DNA of 38,850 nt, taken from positions 1 through 38,850 of the forward strand of contig CAMQVI010000010.1 in the NCBI GenBank assembly GCA_947038195.1, given 5' to 3'. Both the position numbers and the translations under genes were made by a program. The notes beneath the pieces were generated by a model that made no database searches, was not told the origin of the DNA, and was given only the letters and a program-made list of their open reading frames with translations. The stretch is from an uncultured Brevinema sp. (lineage in GTDB: Bacteria > Spirochaetota > Brevinematia > Brevinematales > Brevinemataceae). Positions 119-30,937 of the stretch are shown piece after piece; positions within the stretch are counted from its first letter, which is position 1; each line of letters opens with the position of its first letter.

Positions 119-1930
119 TCAATCCTCATAGGTAATACCAATATCTACAGCTCCATAACCTATATGATTAACGACACAGGGCGAAACTTTATTGATTTCA
201 AGGGGGGGACGTCCAAAGATTAGTTCTAGGCGTTTGAGATAATATTCTTTCATGTTTTCATTTAAGTCTGAGTGAGAAAAAATATAGCCTTTTATAGAGC
301 GATTTTCAGATTTTTTAATAATTGCTTCTATATTTTTAGTGATTGCTTTTTTAAACCCTAAGGCTTTACCTGTAACAGCCAGTTTGCCCTTATTGACTTC
401 TAAAATAGGGAATAAGTTTAAGGCTTTAATAATCCCTCCTGTCCACATTCCTAATCGTCCATTTTTGACTAAATGATCTATGGATAAAAAGTTGAGATGA
501 CTGGTGGTGTTAGTGATATTATTTTCGGCATTTTTAACAATATCCTCCTGAGATAGACCGTCTTGAATATCTTTAGCAATGAAATGGGCAGTAATACTAG
601 CCCCTGCCGCTAATTCTTTAGAGTCAATGATGTCGATTTTCATATCTTTTTTAGAAAGTATTAATTCTTTACCTTGTAAGGCGCTTTGATGTGTTCCACT
701 AACTCCCGAGTCCATTGTTAATACAATAACAGATTTATAATAATGAGATAAATAGCCAAATAAGTCGGCATAGCTTTTTGGGGAGGGTTGGGATGTTTTT
801 ATAGAGACGTTTTTTTGAGTGAAATATTTCTTAAATAGCTCAAGAGTCATGGTACGGATATCTTGATAGTTTACTTTATCAATCTCTACAGATATAGGAA
901 CGAGGTGGATTTGGTGTTCGTCCATAAATTCGGGAGAGAGAGTGATACCAGAATCCACTACAAAAGCAATAGAATGTTTTCTGTGGTGAGTGACATTATA
1001 TTGGAGACGCATATCTTCTACTTTTTGGAAAGTGAAATTTCCAAATTTACGTAATTTATCAAACATATTAGCAGGGTTATTCGTATGAAAATGGAGACGT
1101 ATTTTTTTGTCAGAACCAGCGATAACGATAGAGTCTGAGTCTTCTTCTAAAACTTCAAGGACAGCATCTCGGGACATATTTTCACCGACGAGACAAGTTT
1201 CTGTACAATATCTATTATGTAGGGATTCTTCGGTGAGCGTTTCCGCTTCAGCCATGGGGAAATCGTAATCGTACATGAGAAGGTGTTCCACATCGTGATC
1301 TTCTCGAGAAAAAGAACGAGAAAGAAGTGTTTCTTTCATTCCTTCTATAAAGAGGACAAAACCTTTACCACCAGCATCAACGACTTTGGCTACACGGAGA
1401 GCTTCTAATTGTTCTGTGGTACGAGCAAGTGCTTCTTGAGCGATGACTTCAGCCTTAGTAAATAGGGTATCAAAGTCTGTAAAGGTGTTTTTATTGGTAT
1501 GGATATATTCAGCCCATTCACGAATCACCGTGATGATGGTACCTTCTTGAGGGGAGGGAATAGCTTTATAAACATAGTCGGAAGCTTTTTTGACAATCTC
1601 AGCAAATTTTTGCGTAGAAATATGAGCAGTGTCTTTAATTTCGGCACCCATACCGTAGAGGAATTGGGCTAAAATAACGCCACTATTACCACGAGCTCCG
1701 TCAAGAGCAGCATCACCAACACTAGTCGCTACAATATCAATAGAATCATTTTCTTTAGAGTTATAGATGATAGAAGTAGCTGTAGCAGCGAGGTTGGACC
1801 CTGTATCGCCATCAGGTACGGGGAAAACGTTGATTTTATTTATTTCTTCTTGGTGTTCAATGATTTTTTTGCCACCAGAAATAATAGACCAATAGAGCTC
1901 TTTTCCTGTTAATTTCAATAGAATGGACAT
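119..1930 (-). CDS. DAK2-DegV fusion protein, copy A (FakA-FakB-like fatty acid kinase)
   Basis: Seen: the N-terminal DAK2/DhaL domain (about 10-200) carries the nucleotide/metal motif NVFPVPDGDTGSN at 34-46, GARGNSG at 78-84 and DAGGKGF at 185-191. A middle domain has the HFHTNNP motif at 280-286, typical of FakA-like proteins. A C-terminal DegV/EDD domain (about 320-603) has TSQPSP (379-384), SGVSGTHQSA (408-417) and HLVKNGRLG (486-494). Family knowledge: FakA phosphorylates fatty acids bound to the separate DegV protein FakB; here both halves form one chain. Inference: it activates scavenged fatty acids in the cytoplasm. The ATG has an AGGAGG site. Copy B lies about 0.5 kb upstream; residues 139-230 are identical between copies while the DegV half diverges. 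The usual Ser-Thr before GVSGT is Asp-Ser here, so ligand preference may differ from copy B. Confidence 0.9.
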   Translation of the reverse strand: MSILLKLTGKELYWSIISGGKKIIEHQEEINKINVFPVPDGDTGSNLAATATSIIYNSKENDSIDIVATSVGDAALDGARGNSGVILAQFLYGMGAEIKDTAHISTQKFAEIVKKASDYVYKAIPSPQEGTIITVIREWAEYIHTNKNTFTDFDTLFTKAEVIAQEALARTTEQLEALRVAKVVDAGGKGFVLFIEGMKETLLSRSFSREDHDVEHLLMYDYDFPMAEAETLTEESLHNRYCTETCLVGENMSRDAVLEVLEEDSDSIVIAGSDKKIRLHFHTNNPANMFDKLRKFGNFTFQKVEDMRLQYNVTHHRKHSIAFVVDSGITLSPEFMDEHQIHLVPISVEIDKVNYQDIRTMTLELFKKYFTQKNVSIKTSQPSPKSYADLFGYLSHYYKSVIVLTMDSGVSGTHQSALQGKELILSKKDMKIDIIDSKELAAGASITAHFIAKDIQDGLSQEDIVKNAENNITNTTSHLNFLSIDHLVKNGRLGMWTGGIIKALNLFPILEVNKGKLAVTGKALGFKKAITKNIEAIIKKSENRSIKGYIFSHSDLNENMKEYYLKRLELIFGRPPLEINKVSPCVVNHIGYGAVDIGITYED

Positions 1931-1943
1931 GAGTCCTCCTTTT

Positions 1944-1974
1944 GGTATACCCTATCTAAACTATGTGGTATACC
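1944..1974. promoter_or_regulatory. Twin palindromic boxes in the leader of copy A (possible operator)
   Basis: The 8-bp palindrome GGTATACC occurs at 1944-1951 and 1967-1974. The centres are 23 bp apart, about two helical turns. They lie between the -10 and the Shine-Dalgarno of copy A, where a bound dimeric repressor would block transcription. Copy B lacks these boxes and has a different palindrome, so the two copies may answer to different regulators. The regulator is not identifiable here. Confidence 0.45.
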
Positions 1975-1987
1975 TATTCTCTATTAA

Positions 1988-2016
1988 AATATAATAAAAT
2001 TATGGTAGACAAGCAA
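1988..2016 (-). promoter_or_regulatory. sigma70-type promoter of DAK2-DegV copy A
   Basis: On the minus strand, -35 TTGCTT (2011-2016), a 17-bp spacer and -10 TATATT (1988-1993). The copy B promoter has the same layout and similar bases from -35 through the spacer, so the promoter was duplicated with the gene. Confidence 0.7.
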
Positions 2017-2062
2017 ATTCTATTGATTTTTTGGGGAAGTCCCTACTGAGATACTATAAAAA

Positions 2063-2087
2063 AACAAGCCCTATAATAGGGCTTGTT
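2063..2087. terminator. Terminator of the lost third DAK2-DegV copy
   Basis: A perfect AACAAGCCCTA / TAGGGCTTGTT hairpin with a 3-base loop, flanked by A and T runs on either side so it can work both ways. It lies just beyond the stop of the 3' gene remnant at 2105, as a terminator would lie after an intact gene. Confidence 0.75.
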
Positions 2088-2104
2088 TTTTGTTATATTT
2101 TTTA

Positions 2105-2185
2105 TTAATTCTCATAGGTGATACCAATAGATACATAACCTACATGACTTACAATACAGGGCGAAACCTTATTGATTTCAAGAGG
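2105..2185 (-). pseudogene. 3' remnant of a third DAK2-DegV gene
   Basis: On the minus strand this encodes the last 26 residues of the DegV domain (starts PLEINKVSPCIVSHVGY, ends GITYEN) and a TAA stop. It closely matches the ends of copies A and B but lacks two residues of the GYG(A/S)V loop. Homology stops abruptly near 2186, and everything upstream (the rest of the gene and its promoter) is replaced by the structured block at 2190-2345. A terminator hairpin is still present downstream. It is closer to copy B (shared CIVSHVGY). It is non-functional and shows that the locus once held at least three tandem copies. Confidence 0.85.
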
Positions 2186-2189
2186 GTTA

Positions 2190-2345
2190 TATCCCACAGG
2201 TAGGGACTCTCTTTAGAGGTGCTTATCTCTTTTCCTAGGGATGGCGCTCCCTCTAGCGTAGCATCCCATCTCTGATGTGGGTAAGAACCCCTTTTTTTGG
2301 TAACGTAGCACTCTGTGAGTGGTGGGAGCTATTTGGGGGACACCG
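2190..2345. other. Structured, GC-richer intergenic block with several hairpins
   Basis: No ORF is supportable. Inverted repeats include GGGATG/CATCCC (2238-2267) with an inner CGCT/AGCG stem, CCCATC/GATGTGGG (2265-2281), and CACTC/GAGTG (about 2309-2322). A short GGG/CCC hairpin followed by seven T lies near 2279-2298. The block begins exactly where the third DAK2-DegV copy breaks off, so it may be an inserted or decayed element or a non-coding RNA. Its CTCTAGCG core recurs in the leader of the OM-barrel-like gene near 35150. The nature is unknown. The remaining bases to 2424 are AT-rich with only a weak hairpin. Confidence 0.4.
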
Positions 2346-2424
2346 TAAAATCTCTTTTATATAAAAAAAATCCCACAAATCTTATGTAGATTATTGAAGG
2401 TTTTTTTATGTTTTATACTTTTTA

Positions 2425-4236
2425 TTAATCCTCATAGGTAATACCAACAGATACAGAGCCATAACCTACATGACTTACAATACAGGGCGAAACCTTATTG
2501 ATTTCAAGGGGAGGGCGTCCAAAGATTACTTCTAGGCTTTTGAGAAAATATTCTTTCATATCTTCGTTTAGGTCTGAATGAGAAAATACATAGCCTTTTA
2601 TAGGGCGATTTGCAGATTTTTTAGCAATATCTTCTATATTTTTAGTGATCGCTTTTTCAAATCCAAAGGCTTTACCCGTAACATAAGGTTTACCATCCTT
2701 GATTTCTAGGATAGGACATAAGTTTAAGGCTTTAACTATGCCACCTTTAAACATTCCTAATCTTCCCGTTTTAACCAAATGATCTATTGTTTGAAAGTTT
2801 ATATGATGAGTCGTGTGAGAAATATTATTTTGAATGTTTTTAAGAATATCATCATGAGATACACCATCTTGAATATCTTTAGCCGCAAGGTATGCTATAA
2901 CACCACCCCCACCTGCTAAGTCATTTGAATTGACAACATCGATTTTCATCTCTTTTTTAGCTAGCACTAGCTCTTTACCTTGTAAGGCACTTTGGTATGT
3001 TCCACTAACACCAGTACTCATTGTTAATACAATAACAGATTCATAATAATTAGATAAATATCCAAATAAGTCGGCAAAACTTTTAGGGGAGGGTTGGGAT
3101 GTTTTTACAGAGACGTTTTTTTGAGTGAAATATTTCCTAAATAAGCCAATATCCATAGTACGAATATCTTGGTAGCTGACTTTGTCTATTTCTATATTTA
3201 AAGGATTTAGATGAATTTGATTTTCATCTATAAATTCAGGAGAAAGACTAATACCAGAGTCCACCACAAGAGCAATAGAATGTTTTCTATGGTGAGTAAC
3301 ATTATATTGAAGACGCATATCTTCTACTTTTTGGAAAGTGAAACTCCCAAATTTACGTAATTCATCAAACATATTAGCAGGGCTATTCGTATGAAAGTGC
3401 AGACGCAATTTTTTATCAGAACCAGCGATAACGATAGAGTCTGAGTCTGCTTCTAAAACTTCAAGAACAGCATCTCGGGACATATTTTCACCGATGAGAC
3501 ATGTTTCTGTGCAGTATCTATTATGTAAAGACTTTTCGGTGAGCGCTTCCGCTTCAGCCATAGGGAAATCATAATCGTACATGAGAAGGTGTTCCACATC
3601 GTGATCTTCTCGAGAAAAAGAACGAGAAAGAAGTGTTTCTTTCATTCCTTCTATAAAGAGGACAAAACCTTTACCACCAGCATCAACGACTTTGGCTACA
3701 CGGAGAGCTTCTAATTGTTCTGTGGTACGAGCAAGTGCTTCTTGAGCGATGACTTCAGCTTTGGTAAATAGGGTATCAAAGTCTGTAAAAGTATTTTTAT
3801 TGGTATGGATATATTCAGCCCACACTCGAATAACGGTGATGATAGTACCTTCTTGAGGGGAGGGGATAGCTTTATAAACATAATCGGAAGCTTTTTTGAC
3901 GATTTTAGCAAATTCTTGGGGGGAGAGGCTTACAGAATCTTCTACTTCGACTCCCATACCGTAGAGAAATTGAGCCAAAATGACGCCACTATTACCACGA
4001 GCTCCGTCAAGAGCAGCATCTCCAACGCTAGTAGCTACAATATCAATAGATTCGCTTTCTTTAGAGTTATAGATAATGGAAGTAGCTGTAGCAGCGAGGT
4101 TGGACCCTGTATCGCCATCAGGCACAGGAAAAACATTGATTTTATTGATTTCTTCTTGGTGTTCGATGATTTTTTTACTACCAGCAATAATAGACCAGTA
4201 TAGTTCTTTTCCTGTTAATTTTAATAGAATGGACAT
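2425..4236 (-). CDS. DAK2-DegV fusion protein, copy B (FakA-FakB-like fatty acid kinase)
   Basis: Same length and domain order as copy A: a DAK2 domain with the DGDTGSN motif near 40-46, a FakA-like middle domain with HFHTNSP (280-286), and a C-terminal DegV domain with TSQPSP, STGVSGTYQSA and HLVKTGRLG. The DegV motif here matches the usual family form (S-T-G-x-SGTYQSA) better than copy A does, so copy B is more likely the conserved housekeeping enzyme. Inferred role: phosphorylating fatty acids for phospholipid synthesis. The start follows an AAAGGGG ribosome site. Copies A and B are almost identical at DNA level over the second half of the DAK2 domain but clearly different near residues 430-500, a mosaic suggesting gene conversion. 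No co-transcribed neighbour. Confidence 0.9.
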   Translation of the reverse strand: MSILLKLTGKELYWSIIAGSKKIIEHQEEINKINVFPVPDGDTGSNLAATATSIIYNSKESESIDIVATSVGDAALDGARGNSGVILAQFLYGMGVEVEDSVSLSPQEFAKIVKKASDYVYKAIPSPQEGTIITVIRVWAEYIHTNKNTFTDFDTLFTKAEVIAQEALARTTEQLEALRVAKVVDAGGKGFVLFIEGMKETLLSRSFSREDHDVEHLLMYDYDFPMAEAEALTEKSLHNRYCTETCLIGENMSRDAVLEVLEADSDSIVIAGSDKKLRLHFHTNSPANMFDELRKFGSFTFQKVEDMRLQYNVTHHRKHSIALVVDSGISLSPEFIDENQIHLNPLNIEIDKVSYQDIRTMDIGLFRKYFTQKNVSVKTSQPSPKSFADLFGYLSNYYESVIVLTMSTGVSGTYQSALQGKELVLAKKEMKIDVVNSNDLAGGGGVIAYLAAKDIQDGVSHDDILKNIQNNISHTTHHINFQTIDHLVKTGRLGMFKGGIVKALNLCPILEIKDGKPYVTGKAFGFEKAITKNIEDIAKKSANRPIKGYVFSHSDLNEDMKEYFLKSLEVIFGRPPLEINKVSPCIVSHVGYGSVSVGITYED

Positions 4237-5713: not shown

Positions 5714-7020
5714 TATTCCCCAGCCTGCCTTTCTTGTTTGTTTTTATCTTGTTTTTTTATGGTTTTAGTGATAGACACTTCGTTTACTCTTCTCCCTTGT
5801 AAGCTTAGCACTTCAAAGTACCAAGGTTTAGAAAAAATGATATCTCCAACTTGTGGCATACGACCTAGTTCTTCCATAATAAAACCACTAAGAGTTCTCG
5901 AATCTATATCATCAATATTGATTTTAAGATGCTCGAAGAGATCATCGATATCACAAAGTCCGTCGGCAAGGACTACACCATTGCCTCCTGATTTGAAATC
6001 CATCTCCCCTTCTTCAATCACTTCTCCTACGATTTCAGAGACGATATCTTCTACTCTAAGCACCCCTACTACACCACCGTATTCATCAGCCACAAAAGTA
6101 AGGGGCATTTGTTGTCTTTGCATTTGGATAAGTACTTTTTCTAAATAAGTGGTTTCAGGGACAAAAAAAGCTTCTTGAACATATTTTTCCACACTATCAT
6201 AAGGATTCGCTTTTATTAAGTCTTTAGCTCTCACTCTTCCTATTGGCTCATCAATTCTACTTTTATACACAGGAAGAACAGGGGTTTTATTTTCTCTCAT
6301 TAAGTCTAAAGCGACTTGAACACTTTGGTCTTTTTCTATACAGACAATCTGTGCAAGAGGAATCATAGCCTCACTGGCTTGCACCTCTCGGAATTCTAAG
6401 ATATTGTTAATAAAAACTCTCTCTCTTTCGTTCATAGCACCACTTTTTAGAGAAATATCCAAAAAGTCTCCAAATTCGTTTTGACCAAATAAACCACTAC
6501 TTTCTTCATAAGGAATCCTAAGAACAAAGAAAATAATCTTGATTACAATTCTCACAACAAAAGTAATAGGGTAGCATAAAAAATAAATAATAATCCATGT
6601 TATAGATAAAGAATACGATAAGAAATCTGCAAAGGCATGGAAAATCGCCTTAGGGAGTACTTCTCCTAAAACCAAAGCTAAGGGGGTAGATGTCAAGGTA
6701 GTGCACAATAATGCCCAAGTAGGGGGAACATGCATTGCTTCAACAAATAGCTTATTCATGTAAAGGGTACCAGCAATAAGGGTGACATTATTGAGAATCA
6801 CGATAGAAGTGAGAAATTGAGAAGAGTTTTTAACGAGAAACATCAGAATCTTGGCTGAAACTTCGCCTTTACCTTGTTTTGCGTATAATAAAATACGGTT
6901 TAAGGAAAGAAAAGCTGTTTCTGTTCCTCCTAAAAATCCACTCAAAAACATATTTAAGAACGCCCAAGCAAAGTATTCAAGGGCTAACCACCAGTTAATA
7001 TTTAATATAAATTGTTCCAT
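5713..7020 (-). CDS. CNNM/CBS-pair/CorC-domain membrane protein 2 (HlyC/CorC family)
   Basis: Inner-membrane protein of the CNNM/CorC (old name hemolysin C) family, which exports Mg2+/Co2+ or regulates ion flux. Seen: a DUF21/CNNM transmembrane domain (1 to about 170) with GGTETAFLS (31-39) and GEVLPKA (119-125); a CBS pair (about 210-335) containing ADEYGGVVG (301-309); and a CorC_HlyC C-terminal domain (about 345-425), ending in a charged tail. It has the same domain plan as the adjoining 412-residue protein, so the two are tandem paralogues and could form a heterodimer, since CBS pairs of this family dimerise. Both ends overlap neighbouring genes by one base (TAATG). The transported ion is not shown by sequence. 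Confidence 0.87.
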   Translation of the reverse strand: MEQFILNINWWLALEYFAWAFLNMFLSGFLGGTETAFLSLNRILLYAKQGKGEVSAKILMFLVKNSSQFLTSIVILNNVTLIAGTLYMNKLFVEAMHVPPTWALLCTTLTSTPLALVLGEVLPKAIFHAFADFLSYSLSITWIIIYFLCYPITFVVRIVIKIIFFVLRIPYEESSGLFGQNEFGDFLDISLKSGAMNERERVFINNILEFREVQASEAMIPLAQIVCIEKDQSVQVALDLMRENKTPVLPVYKSRIDEPIGRVRAKDLIKANPYDSVEKYVQEAFFVPETTYLEKVLIQMQRQQMPLTFVADEYGGVVGVLRVEDIVSEIVGEVIEEGEMDFKSGGNGVVLADGLCDIDDLFEHLKINIDDIDSRTLSGFIMEELGRMPQVGDIIFSKPWYFEVLSLQGRRVNEVSITKTIKKQDKNKQERQAGE

Positions 7021-8258
7021 TATTTTACTCTTACCAATAAACTTTCTATACGAGTAGCCGTACGCTCTCTTATACTAATAGAAACATCACTTCTCTCTAT
7101 ACTGTAGAAGAGAGGTGGAATACTTCCATTTTGTTCTATCATATACCCTGCCATAGTAGCGTACTCTTCACTCATGAGATTGAGACCAAATTTTTCGTTG
7201 AAGCTGGAAATAGATACATCCCCTTTCACAAGATAACAATTAGGGAGCATTTGGGTAATATCTAGGTTAATATCAAAATCTTCATCAACAACTTCTCCTA
7301 CTAATTCGGCTAAAATATCACTAAGAGTTACAATACCTAAACATTCTCCATATTCACCAGCAATACCAGCAATACGAATGTTTCGGGATTTAAAATCCTC
7401 TAAAAGATTTTCTAAACTTTTAGATTCAGGAACAAAGTATAAAGGGCTCATAAATTCTTCTAAGGTTTTTTGAGCAGATTGCTCGTTGTGAAAAAAACAC
7501 CCTATATCTTCCATGTGCAAAATACCTACAATATGACTATCTTGCTCTTTATAAACAGGTATCTTACTGTGTTGTTCTGGGCGTAATTCTTCTTTTAATT
7601 CGGCAATAGTGGTATTAATATCCACAGAAAACACTTCAGGTCTAGGTGTCATAACGGCAGTAACCTTACGATCAGCTAAAGATAAAATACGTGCTATCAT
7701 TAATTTCTCTGTACTCTGAAGAAAATCTCCTTGAGATACTACCGTATAAAGAGCTACTCGCCTATCATCTTTTTCTTCTTGATCTTTGATGTGTTGAGAG
7801 AAAAAGTCAATGATTTTATCAGACAAAATTAATAAAGGTTTAGATACATTTAAGAAAAATTTGATTATCCCTGTGATAGGAGTGATCACTGCTGGAACAA
7901 TTTTCATTGCATAAACAGAGGCTAAAGATTTAGGAAGTATCTCCCCAAAAATAATTACGATACCTGATACAAATAGGGCTGATTCTAATAAGGAAAAGCT
8001 ATAGCCTAATTGTTTGAAAAAGTTTTCTAATACTAATGCTAGTAAAATATTAGTGATACTGTTAGCGTTAAGAAGAGATACTAACAATAAGGTAAGATCT
8101 TTTAATAGTCTTCGGACACCCTTTGCATGTTGTAAAGAAAGGCGTCTTATTTTAATTTCATCCATTGAGCATACCGCTGTTTCTGAACCAGAAAAAAAAG
8201 CAGATGCTAGAATAAGGGTTATTGCTATTACTAAATATAACAGAGCCTCAGGACTCAT
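7020..8258 (-). CDS. CNNM/CBS-pair/CorC-domain membrane protein 1 (HlyC/CorC family)
   Basis: First of the two tandem CNNM/CorC paralogues. Seen: a hydrophobic N-terminal domain with GSETA (24-28), the signature of the CNNM fold, and GEILPKS (105-111); a CBS pair (about 195-330) with GEYGECLGIVTL; and a C-terminal CorC-like domain (about 340-405). Family knowledge: these proteins sit in the inner membrane and are linked to divalent-cation (Mg2+, Co2+) efflux. The ATG has an upstream AGGAGG-like site (TCCTCC at 8266-8271). The gap to the aminotransferase gene is 28 bp and its stop overlaps the next start. Sequence alone does not separate an Mg2+ exporter from a regulator. Confidence 0.87.
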   Translation of the reverse strand: MSPEALLYLVIAITLILASAFFSGSETAVCSMDEIKIRRLSLQHAKGVRRLLKDLTLLLVSLLNANSITNILLALVLENFFKQLGYSFSLLESALFVSGIVIIFGEILPKSLASVYAMKIVPAVITPITGIIKFFLNVSKPLLILSDKIIDFFSQHIKDQEEKDDRRVALYTVVSQGDFLQSTEKLMIARILSLADRKVTAVMTPRPEVFSVDINTTIAELKEELRPEQHSKIPVYKEQDSHIVGILHMEDIGCFFHNEQSAQKTLEEFMSPLYFVPESKSLENLLEDFKSRNIRIAGIAGEYGECLGIVTLSDILAELVGEVVDEDFDINLDITQMLPNCYLVKGDVSISSFNEKFGLNLMSEEYATMAGYMIEQNGSIPPLFYSIERSDVSISIRERTATRIESLLVRVK

Positions 8259-17225: not shown

Positions 17226-17495
17226 ATGAATATCACCTTTGATACCAAGATTGACAGATTTAACACAAACTGTAAACTCTGGGATTCCGCTCAAAACCAA
17301 TATGATAAGCCTATGGGGATCTCAGACTTGGACTTTTCTTTTCCTTTTGAAATGACAGAAGCTATAAAAAATCGTGCTGAACACTCTTATTTTGGACATA
17401 CTTATCCTGCAAATAGCTTATATGGTACTATTATTCGATATATGAATCGATTATACCACTGGAAAATAGATAAAGACAAGATTAATTATGTATAA
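17226..17495 (+). pseudogene. Truncated MalY/PatB-type PLP aminotransferase (N-terminal 89 residues)
   Basis: The 89-residue reading frame aligns with the N-terminus of MalY/PatB cystathionine beta-lyases (about 390 residues): FDTKIDRFNTNCKLWD, then ISDLDFSFP (family ISDMDF / VADMDF), then FGHTYP (family FGYT), and it ends at a point matching the family VVYG strand. The PLP-binding lysine domain is entirely absent, so it cannot be an enzyme. It still has a good ribosome site (GAGGG six bases before the ATG) and overlaps the next gene by eight bases, so it may be translated and act as a coupling leader for the 904-residue protein. Confidence 0.75.
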
Positions 17496-20202
17496 AATTT
17501 TAGGTATTATTATTTTATCTTTTTCTCTAAGCTATGGATTTAAGTATGAATACCCTTTTGATTCTAGCACCTATACTTTAAAAGAAATTCGGACTACTAA
17601 TTTTAATATTATTTTTGATGAAGACTCCAAAGAAAAAGCATTTGAGCTCGTACGTTATGTAGAAGAGGAATTTGAATCTATGGTTTCTCATTATGGAGTA
17701 TTTGAGCTTAAAAATTATATCTTCAATCAAAAAATCCGTATCGTTGTTTCTTCTGATTACCAATTAGCCGATACAGCTGGTAGTAATTTTATCTTCCCTA
17801 CTATTCATCTTTATTCATCCGTCCCCCCTGAAATATCAGGCTCTAGATCTTATAGTGACCCAGAATATCTAAGAACTATTTTTAGGCATGAACTTACTTA
17901 TGTTTTCACCTCTGCTATTCGAACATATTTTCCCAAACATTACCTAATAAATGTTTTAAATAATGCGGTAAATCCCAGTGCTCTTTTCAGTGCCCCTTCT
18001 TTTTCAGCAGGAGCAGCCATTGCAAGAGAGAGTGATGGGGATTATGGTCGTTTGAAAGACCCCTATACCTATCATCTTATGAGAAGAGATCTCTTAGATA
18101 ATAAGCTCCCTTCTTTTGCTGAATTTGGAGGGGGAAATACTCGTTTTGATACATTGGATTACCCCTATACTTATGGAGCTTTATTTCACCAACATCTTAT
18201 AGATAATTTTGGGAAAGAAGAGGATTTAGCCTACTGGAAACAAGCTGGACAATGGCGTATCTCTAGCTGGTCTTTGAAAAATGTTACTAAAACACCGCAA
18301 AAAGACCTCTACAAATCTTTCAAAGAAAGCTTAGAGACTCACGAAAAGTATATTACTCATACAAATGCCTTGCTCTCTAAAAGAAGAAAACGCTTGAATT
18401 CTTTCCAAAAAATCAATGATAAAATCTACTACTTCAACCAGCAAAATCGTGAATTAAGAGTATACAACCTCAAAAAACAAAAAGATGAACATATCTTATT
18501 TGGGGGAAATAATTGGAGTAAAGTGGCCGTTTCTCCCGACGAAAAGTACCTCTTAGTATCTGCTATAGCAGATAAAAAAGTCTTTTCTATTGTGGTGCAT
18601 AGGCGATCTCTCCTTCCTAAAACAAGACCTTATATGGGTTTTAATGATGGAACTTTTCTTTCAACATCTACCCCAGATAATATTCAAATAGTAGCTATAA
18701 ACAGGAACACCCCTTATCCCGAACTTACAATTATTAGTAATAAAAATTACTACCCTCTATACACAGGAAATCCTGTCGAGTACTTCAACAGCCCCCTTAG
18801 TGTAGATGATCAGTATATCTATTTTCTCCACTCTTATAAAGGAACAAAGAAAGTATCTCGAATTGATATTCATAATAAAAAAGTTTCTAGCATAGATAAC
18901 GACAAACTATCTATTCCTAGATTCTTGACAGGGGATAAAGAGCATATTAGTGTATCTTACGCCAAAGAGGGGAACTCTTTTTATAAAAGAGCTATTATTA
19001 AAGACGATAATATCACTTTTATTAATGATAATATCAAAGGAGAGCTCTTTGAATCTTATTTATATGAAGATATTCTTTATTACAAATCTTCTTTTTCTAA
19101 ACAAGATAATTTAATGGCTCTCCCTTTAGACCAATTTAACACGAGCACAGAAAAGGCTCTTTTTGTGGCTCATAATACCCCTGTAATGGAGCCCTATACT
19201 TATGATGGGATTATTGATGACTATAATCTATCTGCTGATTTTGCCACTATGTCTTGGCTCCCTGTTATCACTTTTGAAAGGTTCGGCGTACGTACTATTA
19301 TGCAAGATAGTACAGGGGCACACCACATCTATACAAGTATAGTAATAGAGTACCAAAGAGGCACCCCAGAGTTTACATTCTCTTGGGAGAATGAAGAACT
19401 TCCTATCGTTTTTACTGCTGACTTCTATAATATGTACATGAAAAAAAACAGTGCCCTACAACTAGGTGAGCATCACTTAGTATCTGTAGGAATGGCCGCC
19501 TCCTATAGTGCCGAATCTGTATTACTAGCAGGGGACTTTTTTATTTCTTATGGGATAGAATGGCAGGGGCGGTTCATTGGGGACACAAGAAAACATCCCT
19601 ATACCTGGGACATCTTAGGTACCTCACAGGTCATAGGGACGGCAAAGATGATTTGGCAGTATTACGTGTCAGAGGGAGCTTTTGGTTTTTACAGAAAAGT
19701 GGAATTTACTGTTGAACAGAAGACGGATTACTTGAACCCTGAATGGCATCGTGTAGAAGGCTCCATGGTACTCTCTCTTCCTATCTTACCTATAGTACTC
19801 CGAGCCTATACAACTTACGATACCTCAGAGTTATCAATACGAGGCTCTTCTGTTTTGGGGGATAGCTTAATCCCTATATACAAAGAATTCCAAGATGAAA
19901 ATATCTTTAGCCCTTATGTAGCCTATGGAGATATAAATCTTATGATTTTCTCTTGGGAAATTCAAAATGGATTTGGATTTGGGGAGCTGTTTATTGAGCG
20001 TTGGGCGTTTTATACAGGCTATAGAATCGCTTATTGGGGGGCAGAAAATCCTTTCCTCCATTCTGTTTATATAAAGACACATCTGGATTTTACTATTCTT
20101 TTCAAATATATCCCTTTGTCTTTCGAGGTAGAAGGTACCTACTCTATCAACACTAAGCAATGGAATTATTTCCTAAGCTTAGAGGCTATTGTGCATATTT
20201 AA
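17488..20202 (+). CDS. Large exported protein: peptidase-MA-like domain, propeller-like middle, beta-rich C-terminus
   Basis: 904 residues with a signal peptide (about 1-17). Residues 35-290 resemble the peptidase-MA (gluzincin) fold: after LRTIFRHELTYVF the expected zinc motif HExxH reads H134-E-L-T-Y138, so the second histidine is replaced by Tyr and zinc binding is doubtful. Residues about 310-580 have repeated short strands with VSPDEKYLLVS and DDQYIYFLHS patterns, like TolB/WD-type propellers. From about 610 to the end it alternates aromatic and hydrophobic strands, as in outer-membrane barrels. Inference: a surface or periplasmic protein with an adapted protease domain. There is no clear Shine-Dalgarno; the start lies in the stop region of the aminotransferase remnant, suggesting coupled translation. 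Confidence 0.75.
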   Translation: MYKILGIIILSFSLSYGFKYEYPFDSSTYTLKEIRTTNFNIIFDEDSKEKAFELVRYVEEEFESMVSHYGVFELKNYIFNQKIRIVVSSDYQLADTAGSNFIFPTIHLYSSVPPEISGSRSYSDPEYLRTIFRHELTYVFTSAIRTYFPKHYLINVLNNAVNPSALFSAPSFSAGAAIARESDGDYGRLKDPYTYHLMRRDLLDNKLPSFAEFGGGNTRFDTLDYPYTYGALFHQHLIDNFGKEEDLAYWKQAGQWRISSWSLKNVTKTPQKDLYKSFKESLETHEKYITHTNALLSKRRKRLNSFQKINDKIYYFNQQNRELRVYNLKKQKDEHILFGGNNWSKVAVSPDEKYLLVSAIADKKVFSIVVHRRSLLPKTRPYMGFNDGTFLSTSTPDNIQIVAINRNTPYPELTIISNKNYYPLYTGNPVEYFNSPLSVDDQYIYFLHSYKGTKKVSRIDIHNKKVSSIDNDKLSIPRFLTGDKEHISVSYAKEGNSFYKRAIIKDDNITFINDNIKGELFESYLYEDILYYKSSFSKQDNLMALPLDQFNTSTEKALFVAHNTPVMEPYTYDGIIDDYNLSADFATMSWLPVITFERFGVRTIMQDSTGAHHIYTSIVIEYQRGTPEFTFSWENEELPIVFTADFYNMYMKKNSALQLGEHHLVSVGMAASYSAESVLLAGDFFISYGIEWQGRFIGDTRKHPYTWDILGTSQVIGTAKMIWQYYVSEGAFGFYRKVEFTVEQKTDYLNPEWHRVEGSMVLSLPILPIVLRAYTTYDTSELSIRGSSVLGDSLIPIYKEFQDENIFSPYVAYGDINLMIFSWEIQNGFGFGELFIERWAFYTGYRIAYWGAENPFLHSVYIKTHLDFTILFKYIPLSFEVEGTYSINTKQWNYFLSLEAIVHI

Positions 20203-29677: not shown

Positions 29678-30811
29678 TTATTCTTCGTATTCGTAGCCTT
29701 CGCCATAAGCATCATCATAACCAGATTCGTATGCTGCTTCATCGTAAGTTCCTTCATCATAAGCAGCTTCACCCTCAACAGGAGCTTCTTCAACAGGAAC
29801 TTCTTCAACAGGCACGACAGGAGCTATTACCACTACAGGAACAACAGGAGGTTCTCCCCCTAGCTCTACAGTATGAGAACCATTAGGAATAGGCATTTGG
29901 TTTAGGATATTTACAGGAACAGGTGCTCCATCAGGGTCTACCAAGGTATAACCTTCTGGGATCATTTGTCCCACAGAACCAGGTAATTTTTTATCGTTAG
30001 GGGTGTAATTAATCCCTTGTCTTAAAAATTCTTCTGTGAGATTATCAATAGCAGCATCTGTGGCTCTTTGAGCGGAGAGGGCTGCTGCTTGAGCTTCGTA
30101 GGCTCTAATTTGAGCAACAGTATTAGCACTTTGTTCTCTAAGAAGTCTTTCTGCTGCGTTACGTGCTAAACGTTCGGCTTGGAAATTTTGTTCCGCTGCT
30201 GTCTTTTCAGACATGATTTTTTCGTAACGTTCTTTAGCCAATTGATCAATTTGTACTTGTTGGTCTTTTAGAGTATTGGCTTCTGTGGTCCATTTTTCAG
30301 CTTCAGATCTCCAATGTTCTGCTTCTTTAGTCCATTCAGACGCTTGCTGTCTTAGACGTTCGGCTTCTGCTCTAGCTTTAGCTGCTTGAGCAAGATCTGT
30401 GCTAACACGTTCTTGTTCTGTATGAGCTTTTAATTGTTCTACTCTTGTGGATCGCATTTTAATAAAAAGATAATCAACGATTTTTTGTTCTCCAGCTTGA
30501 GCGGCTAAAGTCATAGGAGTAATATTTCTGTTGTTTACGATATAAACATCGGAGCCACTATTTACGAGAAATTCTACACCCTCGAAAGTCCCAGCTGCTG
30601 CAGCATAGTGTAAAGGGGTAAATCCATTGTCATCTTGAATGTTTACGTTATAACCTTTATCCACTAAAACTCTCATCATCTCTACATAGCCTTGAGCTGC
30701 TGCCCAATGTAAAGGGGAGTAGTTGGACGATACCGTTTGGAGTGACTGTCCATAGTTAGCTGTAGGAAAAATTATTCCTAAAAATGTAAATAATAATATA
30801 ATTTGTTTCAC
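29678..30811 (-). CDS. Exported ankyrin-repeat protein with coiled coil and acidic Tyr-rich tail
   Basis: 377 residues: a signal peptide (about 1-21, ending TANYGQ), three ankyrin repeats (about 29-120, e.g. SPLHWAAAQGYVEMMRVLV and TPLHYAAAAG), a long Ala/Glu/Arg coiled coil (about 125-255, repeating AEAERLRQQA and EAEHWRSEAEKW), a globular stretch (about 260-325), and a tail rich in Val-Pro-Glu and Asp-Glu-Ala-Tyr repeats. Start choice: the GTG at 30811 is preceded by AGAGGG and opens the signal peptide; a longer ATG reading from 30889 would place 26 charged residues before it. Inference: periplasmic or surface scaffold protein. It is adjacent to another ankyrin protein on the same strand. 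No enzymatic domain is seen. Confidence 0.8.
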   Translation of the reverse strand: MKQIILLFTFLGIIFPTANYGQSLQTVSSNYSPLHWAAAQGYVEMMRVLVDKGYNVNIQDDNGFTPLHYAAAAGTFEGVEFLVNSGSDVYIVNNRNITPMTLAAQAGEQKIVDYLFIKMRSTRVEQLKAHTEQERVSTDLAQAAKARAEAERLRQQASEWTKEAEHWRSEAEKWTTEANTLKDQQVQIDQLAKERYEKIMSEKTAAEQNFQAERLARNAAERLLREQSANTVAQIRAYEAQAAALSAQRATDAAIDNLTEEFLRQGINYTPNDKKLPGSVGQMIPEGYTLVDPDGAPVPVNILNQMPIPNGSHTVELGGEPPVVPVVVIAPVVPVEEVPVEEAPVEGEAAYDEGTYDEAAYESGYDDAYGEGYEYEE

Positions 30812-30937
30812 GTCTTGCCCTCTCAATCTTAAAATAAATCTAGTTCTATGATTATTATAATATATATCGGATGATTTATTAAAATACATGACTAAAATAT
30901 CTTGTCATTTTTTATGATTTTTCTTTTTTTTAGCTTT

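Follow-up and report, generated by a model that had tools for sequence, protein, structure and literature searches.

Tandem genes for putative one-piece fatty acid kinases in a Brevinema-like spirochaete, with kinase halves probably homogenised by gene conversion

A contig of 38,850 nucleotides from an uncultured Brevinema species, analysed here in its entirety (the window) and belonging to a draft genome of 114 contigs that is 89% complete, carries two tandem genes, A and B, each of which joins a DAK2 domain, a FakA middle domain and a DegV/FakB domain in one chain. In our best joint explanation, which we hold to be probable, A and B encode single-polypeptide fatty acid kinases, were imported as extra copies, and have had their kinase halves made uniform through gene conversion, with retention of two older alleles of the binding subdomain. 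The two genes are located as follows:

119..1930, minus strand: gene A, putative 603-residue one-piece fatty acid kinase (DAK2, residues 37–199; FakA middle domain, 239–312; DegV/FakB, 321–600).
2425..4236, minus strand: gene B, second 603-residue copy with the same architecture, its protein 84% identical to that of A.

An initial annotation of this DNA had described two tandem 603-codon DAK2-DegV fusions, and the domain searches agree: both open reading frames (ORFs) match the Pfam families Dak2, FakA-like_M (PF21645) and DegV far above the cut-offs. In an AlphaFold model of the B protein (predicted local distance difference test score 84.8, predicted template modelling score 0.82), the DAK2 part matches FakA_N of Staphylococcus aureus with a template modelling (TM) score of 0.95 at 1.1 Å, and the DegV part matches FakB2 with TM scores of 0.86–0.90. 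The best whole-chain fold match of the model is FakA of the Streptococcus suis FakA-FakB2 complex (PDB 7w7h), which differs from the fusions in its two chains and its FakA_C domain. Residues assigned functions in the S. aureus system (PMC9136124, PMC8892158) recur in the fusions. The Mg-binding FakA residues Asn32, Asp38 and Asp40 correspond to N34, D40 and D42, nearly invariant among 12 fusions, and the FakA triad of Cys240, His282 and His284 to C242, H280 and H282, invariant among 12. The carboxyl-binding FakB1 residues Thr62, Ser95 and His270 and the catalytic Arg173 are kept in both A and B as T379, S411, H589 and R492. In the genome, at its 89% completeness, no separate FakA or FakB genes were found; its DegV matches are the two fusions of the window and a third on another contig (C36, see below), and the sole further Dak2 match is a 212-residue ORF of DhaL size. 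PlsY, a user of acyl-phosphate, and one beta-ketoacyl synthase are also encoded. Because the domains, the fold match, the kept FakA and FakB residues and the presence of PlsY agree, we read A and B as fatty acid kinases. The DAK2 domain would bind ATP-Mg, the middle domain would provide dimerisation and the Cys-His-His triad, and the DegV domain would hold a fatty acid and present its carboxyl group for direct phosphorylation within the polypeptide or a dimer, yielding an acyl-phosphate that may feed PlsY.

With the two-protein FakA + FakB system of S. aureus (PMC9136124, PMC8892158) the fusions thus share DAK2, a middle domain with the Cys-His-His triad, and a DegV/FakB domain with the equivalents of Thr62, Ser95, Arg173 and His270; they differ in being one polypeptide, in having the FakB domain in place of FakA_C (PF13684), and in a hydrophobic residue at the Arg205 position. 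The N-terminal two thirds of A and B also align with the YloV/TIGR03599 'DAK2 domain fusion protein' family, but both score 270–284 bits against a cut-off of 396, and their C-terminal domain is DegV, not FakA_C. No paper describing DAK2-DegV fusions was found in open-access text.

Canonical FakA ends in FakA_C, a domain that is related to FakB but non-binding and onto which FakB docks; Arg205 of FakB sits in a negative groove on FakA_C, and with the R205E exchange the Km is 2.6 instead of 0.09 μM (PMC9136124). A Pfam search detected no FakA_C (PF13684) in A or B, while canonical FakA proteins with this domain are present in the same phylum (L054, L055). The positions equivalent to Arg205, identified by aligning the fusions to FakB1 and FakB2 of S. 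aureus, are:

359..361, minus strand: Leu524 of A, at the position of FakB1 Arg205 (FakA_C docking).
2665..2667, minus strand: Phe524 of B, at the same docking position.

This position is Phe, Tyr, Leu or Ile in all 20 fusions of the A/B lineage; all 11 separate FakBs and all 3 fusions of a second, shorter type have Arg or Lys there. Since the 20 fusions form one lineage, both in the DegV tree (support 93/83) and in the DAK2-middle tree (76/88), the change represents one loss that has been kept, not 20 events. S. aureus FakA lacking FakA_C remains active with an approximately tenfold higher Km for FakB1 (PMC9136124), and a covalent tether could therefore be a sufficient replacement for docking. 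We suggest that, with a FakB-type domain occupying the place of FakA_C, tethering may have replaced docking and Arg205 was lost.

The second fusion type (L051–L053, other Spirochaetota, 572–580 residues) likewise has DAK2, middle and DegV domains in one chain, but forms a separate lineage in both domain trees and keeps Arg or Lys at the Arg205 position; it is of separate origin and has Thr instead of Ser at the FakB1 Ser95 position. Two other fusions, L049 and L050 (genomes G270 and G074), measure 780–830 residues and carry an extra N-terminal stretch of about 170–220 residues before DAK2, which in L049 matched no Pfam family. A fusion profile matched 34 of 296 Spirochaetota genomes, with full-length fusions in the window's family, in a second family of its order and in at least three others; outside the phylum, one fusion occurs in a Bacteroidales record, a single locus on which any wider spread rests. 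The architecture is therefore not special to the copies described here; the fusion is evidently an old lineage in Spirochaetota.

To relate A and B to other copies, we compared them with S10 and S12p, the two fusion copies of a sister-species genome (of S12p, the part from codon 236 onwards is available). The comparison of A with B gives 249 differing sites in total, none of them within nucleotides 478–665, and the following segments are relevant:

1266..1453, minus strand: tract in A of 188 nucleotides (codons 160–222) identical to B, probably a recent gene conversion.
3572..3759, minus strand: the corresponding 188-nucleotide tract in B (codons 160–222), identical to A.
371..670, minus strand: codons 421–520 of A, non-homogenised acyl-pocket and lid subdomain, pairing with S12p.
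2677..2976, minus strand: codons 421–520 of B, non-homogenised acyl-pocket and lid subdomain, pairing with S10.

Rather than being uniform along the gene, silent differences between A and B are unevenly distributed over seven blocks (chi-square p=0.00028), while eight control pairs over the same blocks gave no comparable signal (block p 0.045–0.9). The longest silent-identical run spans 60 codons (permutation p=0.0002), and the identical run over all polymorphic sites is also longer than expected (p<1e-4); in the strictest set, comprising codons silent in all seven genes, its p value is 0.06. The ratio of A-B to between-species silent divergence along the blocks is 0.62, 0.79, 0.15, 0.62, 0.92, 1.17 and 0.46, with the minimum at codons 159–222 and the maximum at codons 421–520, where A-B silent divergence is at the species level. 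Moreover, the tree topology switches. In codons 1–235, A and B group together (100/99) and B+S10 is rejected (p value of the approximately unbiased test, p-AU, 0.0016); in codons 421–520, B groups with S10 (95/93) and A with S12p (88/93), and both A+B (p-AU 0.0014) and S10+S12p (p-AU 0.003) are rejected. Because A and B pair with S12p and S10 at codons 421–520 whereas the kinase half unites them, we suggest that the kinase half was homogenised by conversion and that two older binding-subdomain alleles were kept. The conversion proposed in the initial annotation thus gains support, and its forecast divergence peak at residues 420–500 is found at codons 421–520. It had also expected near-zero divergence over residues 120–330 and an identical second half of DAK2; the identical tract does lie in the C-terminal part of that domain, but is confined to codons 160–222. 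Similarly, the contrast it drew between a uniform kinase and a divergent DegV half holds for the distinct ligand-binding subdomains, but not for the 3′ tail, codons 521–603 (the last 83 of the DegV half), which also looks homogenised.

Codons 421–520 correspond to FakB1 residues around 102–201, a region that includes the mobile lid 164–186 as well as two pocket residues, Ala121 and Ala158, whose mutants have been assayed for substrate selectivity (PMC8892158). At the Ala158 position, A has Ser and B has His, and the ligand motif differs between the copies, as originally reported (MDSGVSGTHQSA versus MSTGVSGTYQSA). It is therefore plausible that A and B prefer different fatty acids. The idea that the binding domain diversifies through selection for change fares less well: all pairs show high amino-acid divergence in the DegV half, single-locus orthologues included (S49–T2, 39 per 100 in codons 421–520), the kinase half being more conserved in all pairs, and no sign of positive selection was seen in any block, nonsynonymous divergence (pn) lying below synonymous divergence (ps) throughout. 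Since weaker constraint and a lack of conversion suffice for such a pattern, the binding domain is better described as keeping older differences. The resulting arrangement resembles concerted evolution of duplicated genes with local escape, in which a homogenised part lies beside a retained divergent part, except that here the escaping segment is the acyl-pocket/lid subdomain of a bacterial metabolic enzyme.

Downstream of the third intact fusion, C36, lies a gene encoding a protein of about 900 residues, a neighbour that C36 shares with the fusions of genomes G001 (S49), G002 (T2) and G003 (F9), and for this reason we take C36 to mark the ancestral locus and A and B to be extra copies. On housekeeping genes, the genome falls outside G001+G002 (100/99), and its silent differences from G001 amount to 0.41–0.51. 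The contig neighbours of A and B differ from the sister genome by 0.42–0.48, and C36 shows 0.47–0.48, in keeping with a resident copy; for A and B the values are 0.27–0.33, the level between G001 and G002. A single clade of A, B and C36 is rejected (p=0.0007). A and B look imported because their silent divergence to the sister-species genes is too low relative to that of other genes; in the simplest reading, drawn from few genes, they would have been transferred from the G001/G002 side and then undergone conversion with each other in the recipient. The window contig itself as a sister-species contaminant was considered and rejected, since the neighbours of A and B show the genome's normal divergence. 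In the sister genome, S10 adjoins folD and S12p adjoins glyA on different contigs, so that the two are not in tandem there, and no clear match was found between the upstream end of S10 and the region upstream of B.

Several points weigh against this explanation. Codons 236–318 and 521–603 favour A+B without rejecting the alternatives (p-AU 0.09–0.15), S12p being cut at codon 236 and the genomes few; the conversion tests drew on two further genomes of the genus, and the choice of borders for the 421–520 segment was in part made with the data in view, although these lie near the forecast ones. The contig starts 118 bp past A, and assembly could affect copy number, tandem order or joining across the 188-bp tract. 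With respect to docking, the Arg205 change is a single event in one lineage, and lysines remain nearby.

How far do other explanations accommodate the data? Were A and B a recent lineage-specific tandem duplication, with stronger constraint on the kinase half, not conversion, producing the uneven divergence, this would fit the greater amino-acid conservation of that half seen in all pairs and the A+B clade recovered over the whole gene (96/99). However, silent sites are uneven as well for A-B (p=0.00028) and not comparably so in the eight control pairs, the A-B to between-species ratio rises from 0.15 to 1.17, and codons 421–520 reject A+B in favour of the pairings with S10 and S12p; we consider this account very improbable and already largely refuted. 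It is also improbable that strain mixture or repeat collapse in an assembly of metagenome type made the identical tract or the tandem order. The window contig does end at the 3′ flank of A, sister contigs also break in or near fusions (S12p at its starting codon 236, S10 at 268 bp from a contig end), and the 188-bp tract is longer than usual assembly k-mers, but an exchange of halves at the tract would not produce it; moreover, the 5′ parts of A and B are closer to each other than to any other copy, the sister genome has the same within-genome likeness at codons 236–318 (S10–S12p, ps 0.27), and the normal divergence of the contig neighbours is accompanied by an estimated contamination of the genome of 0.37%.

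Descent of A and B as ancient vertical paralogues shared with G001, C36 being a different paralogue, would account for the A-S12p and B-S10 pairings, from which it follows that both alleles are older than the divergence of the compared sequences. Such paralogues should show silent divergence of 0.41–0.51, yet A and B show G001–G002-level values, and it is C36, at the ancestral locus, that fits vertical descent; we regard vertical inheritance as rather unlikely. Finally, there is a slight chance that the DegV domain is a lipid sensor or binds another amphiphile, the protein being a regulator or a different DAK2 kinase: the FakB1 Ala158 position carries polar residues (Ser, His or Asn), and the literature searched yielded no enzyme of DAK2-middle-DegV architecture with published activity. 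Against this, the FakA and FakB residues for carboxyl binding and catalysis are all retained, and the genome encodes PlsY.

The interval between A and B contains the following elements:

2105..2194, minus strand: remnant of a third fusion, about 30 codons of a 3′ end.
2059..2091, no strand assigned: hairpin terminator belonging to the remnant.
2193..2424, no strand assigned: patchwork of dispersed repeats abutting the truncated third copy, with short repeats on many other contigs of the genome.

The remnant, previously noted as a 26-residue tail, is 81% identical to gene B (E=7e-8); together with its own hairpin it matches the 3′ ends and terminators of sister-species fusion genes at 78–79%. 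It ends where the patchwork starts, and a 31-bp piece of the latter has 94–97% matches on four other contigs. Consensus promoter matches in the region (23, with 17.1 expected by chance, standard deviation 4.1) were near chance and were not used.

Elsewhere, the window encodes a 904-residue ORF without a Pfam match (17488–20202) and an ankyrin-repeat protein (29678–30889). A CorC-like gene (7020–8258) is 80% identical to its counterpart in G001 and 53% to that in G002 despite these genomes being sisters, and replacement in G002 or transfer is therefore likely.

In the scenario we favour, a Brevinema-like spirochaete already holding a resident copy would have acquired A and B as imported duplicates; their kinase halves and 3′ ends became homogenised with each other, the two older 421–520 alleles persisted, and the cell would keep three isoforms, probably differing in lipid preference or expression. 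For the lineage as a whole, we would give even chances to a broader proposal, namely that a FakB domain replaced FakA_C with loss of the docking Arg, that the fatty acid is phosphorylated in the FakB fold with no transfer to FakA_C, and that the range of substrates evolves as the acyl-pocket subdomain alone is kept or swapped, while conversion holds the kinase uniform. A natural enzyme with a complete FakB domain instead of FakA_C would put hand-over to FakA_C directly to the test, since activity of this enzyme on its own would mean that the hand-over is unneeded. As a covalent complex, it may be an easier structural target for a system through which bacteria can evade fatty-acid-synthesis inhibitors, and the A/B pair would constitute a natural chimera experiment, in which nearly the same kinase is joined to different acyl pockets.

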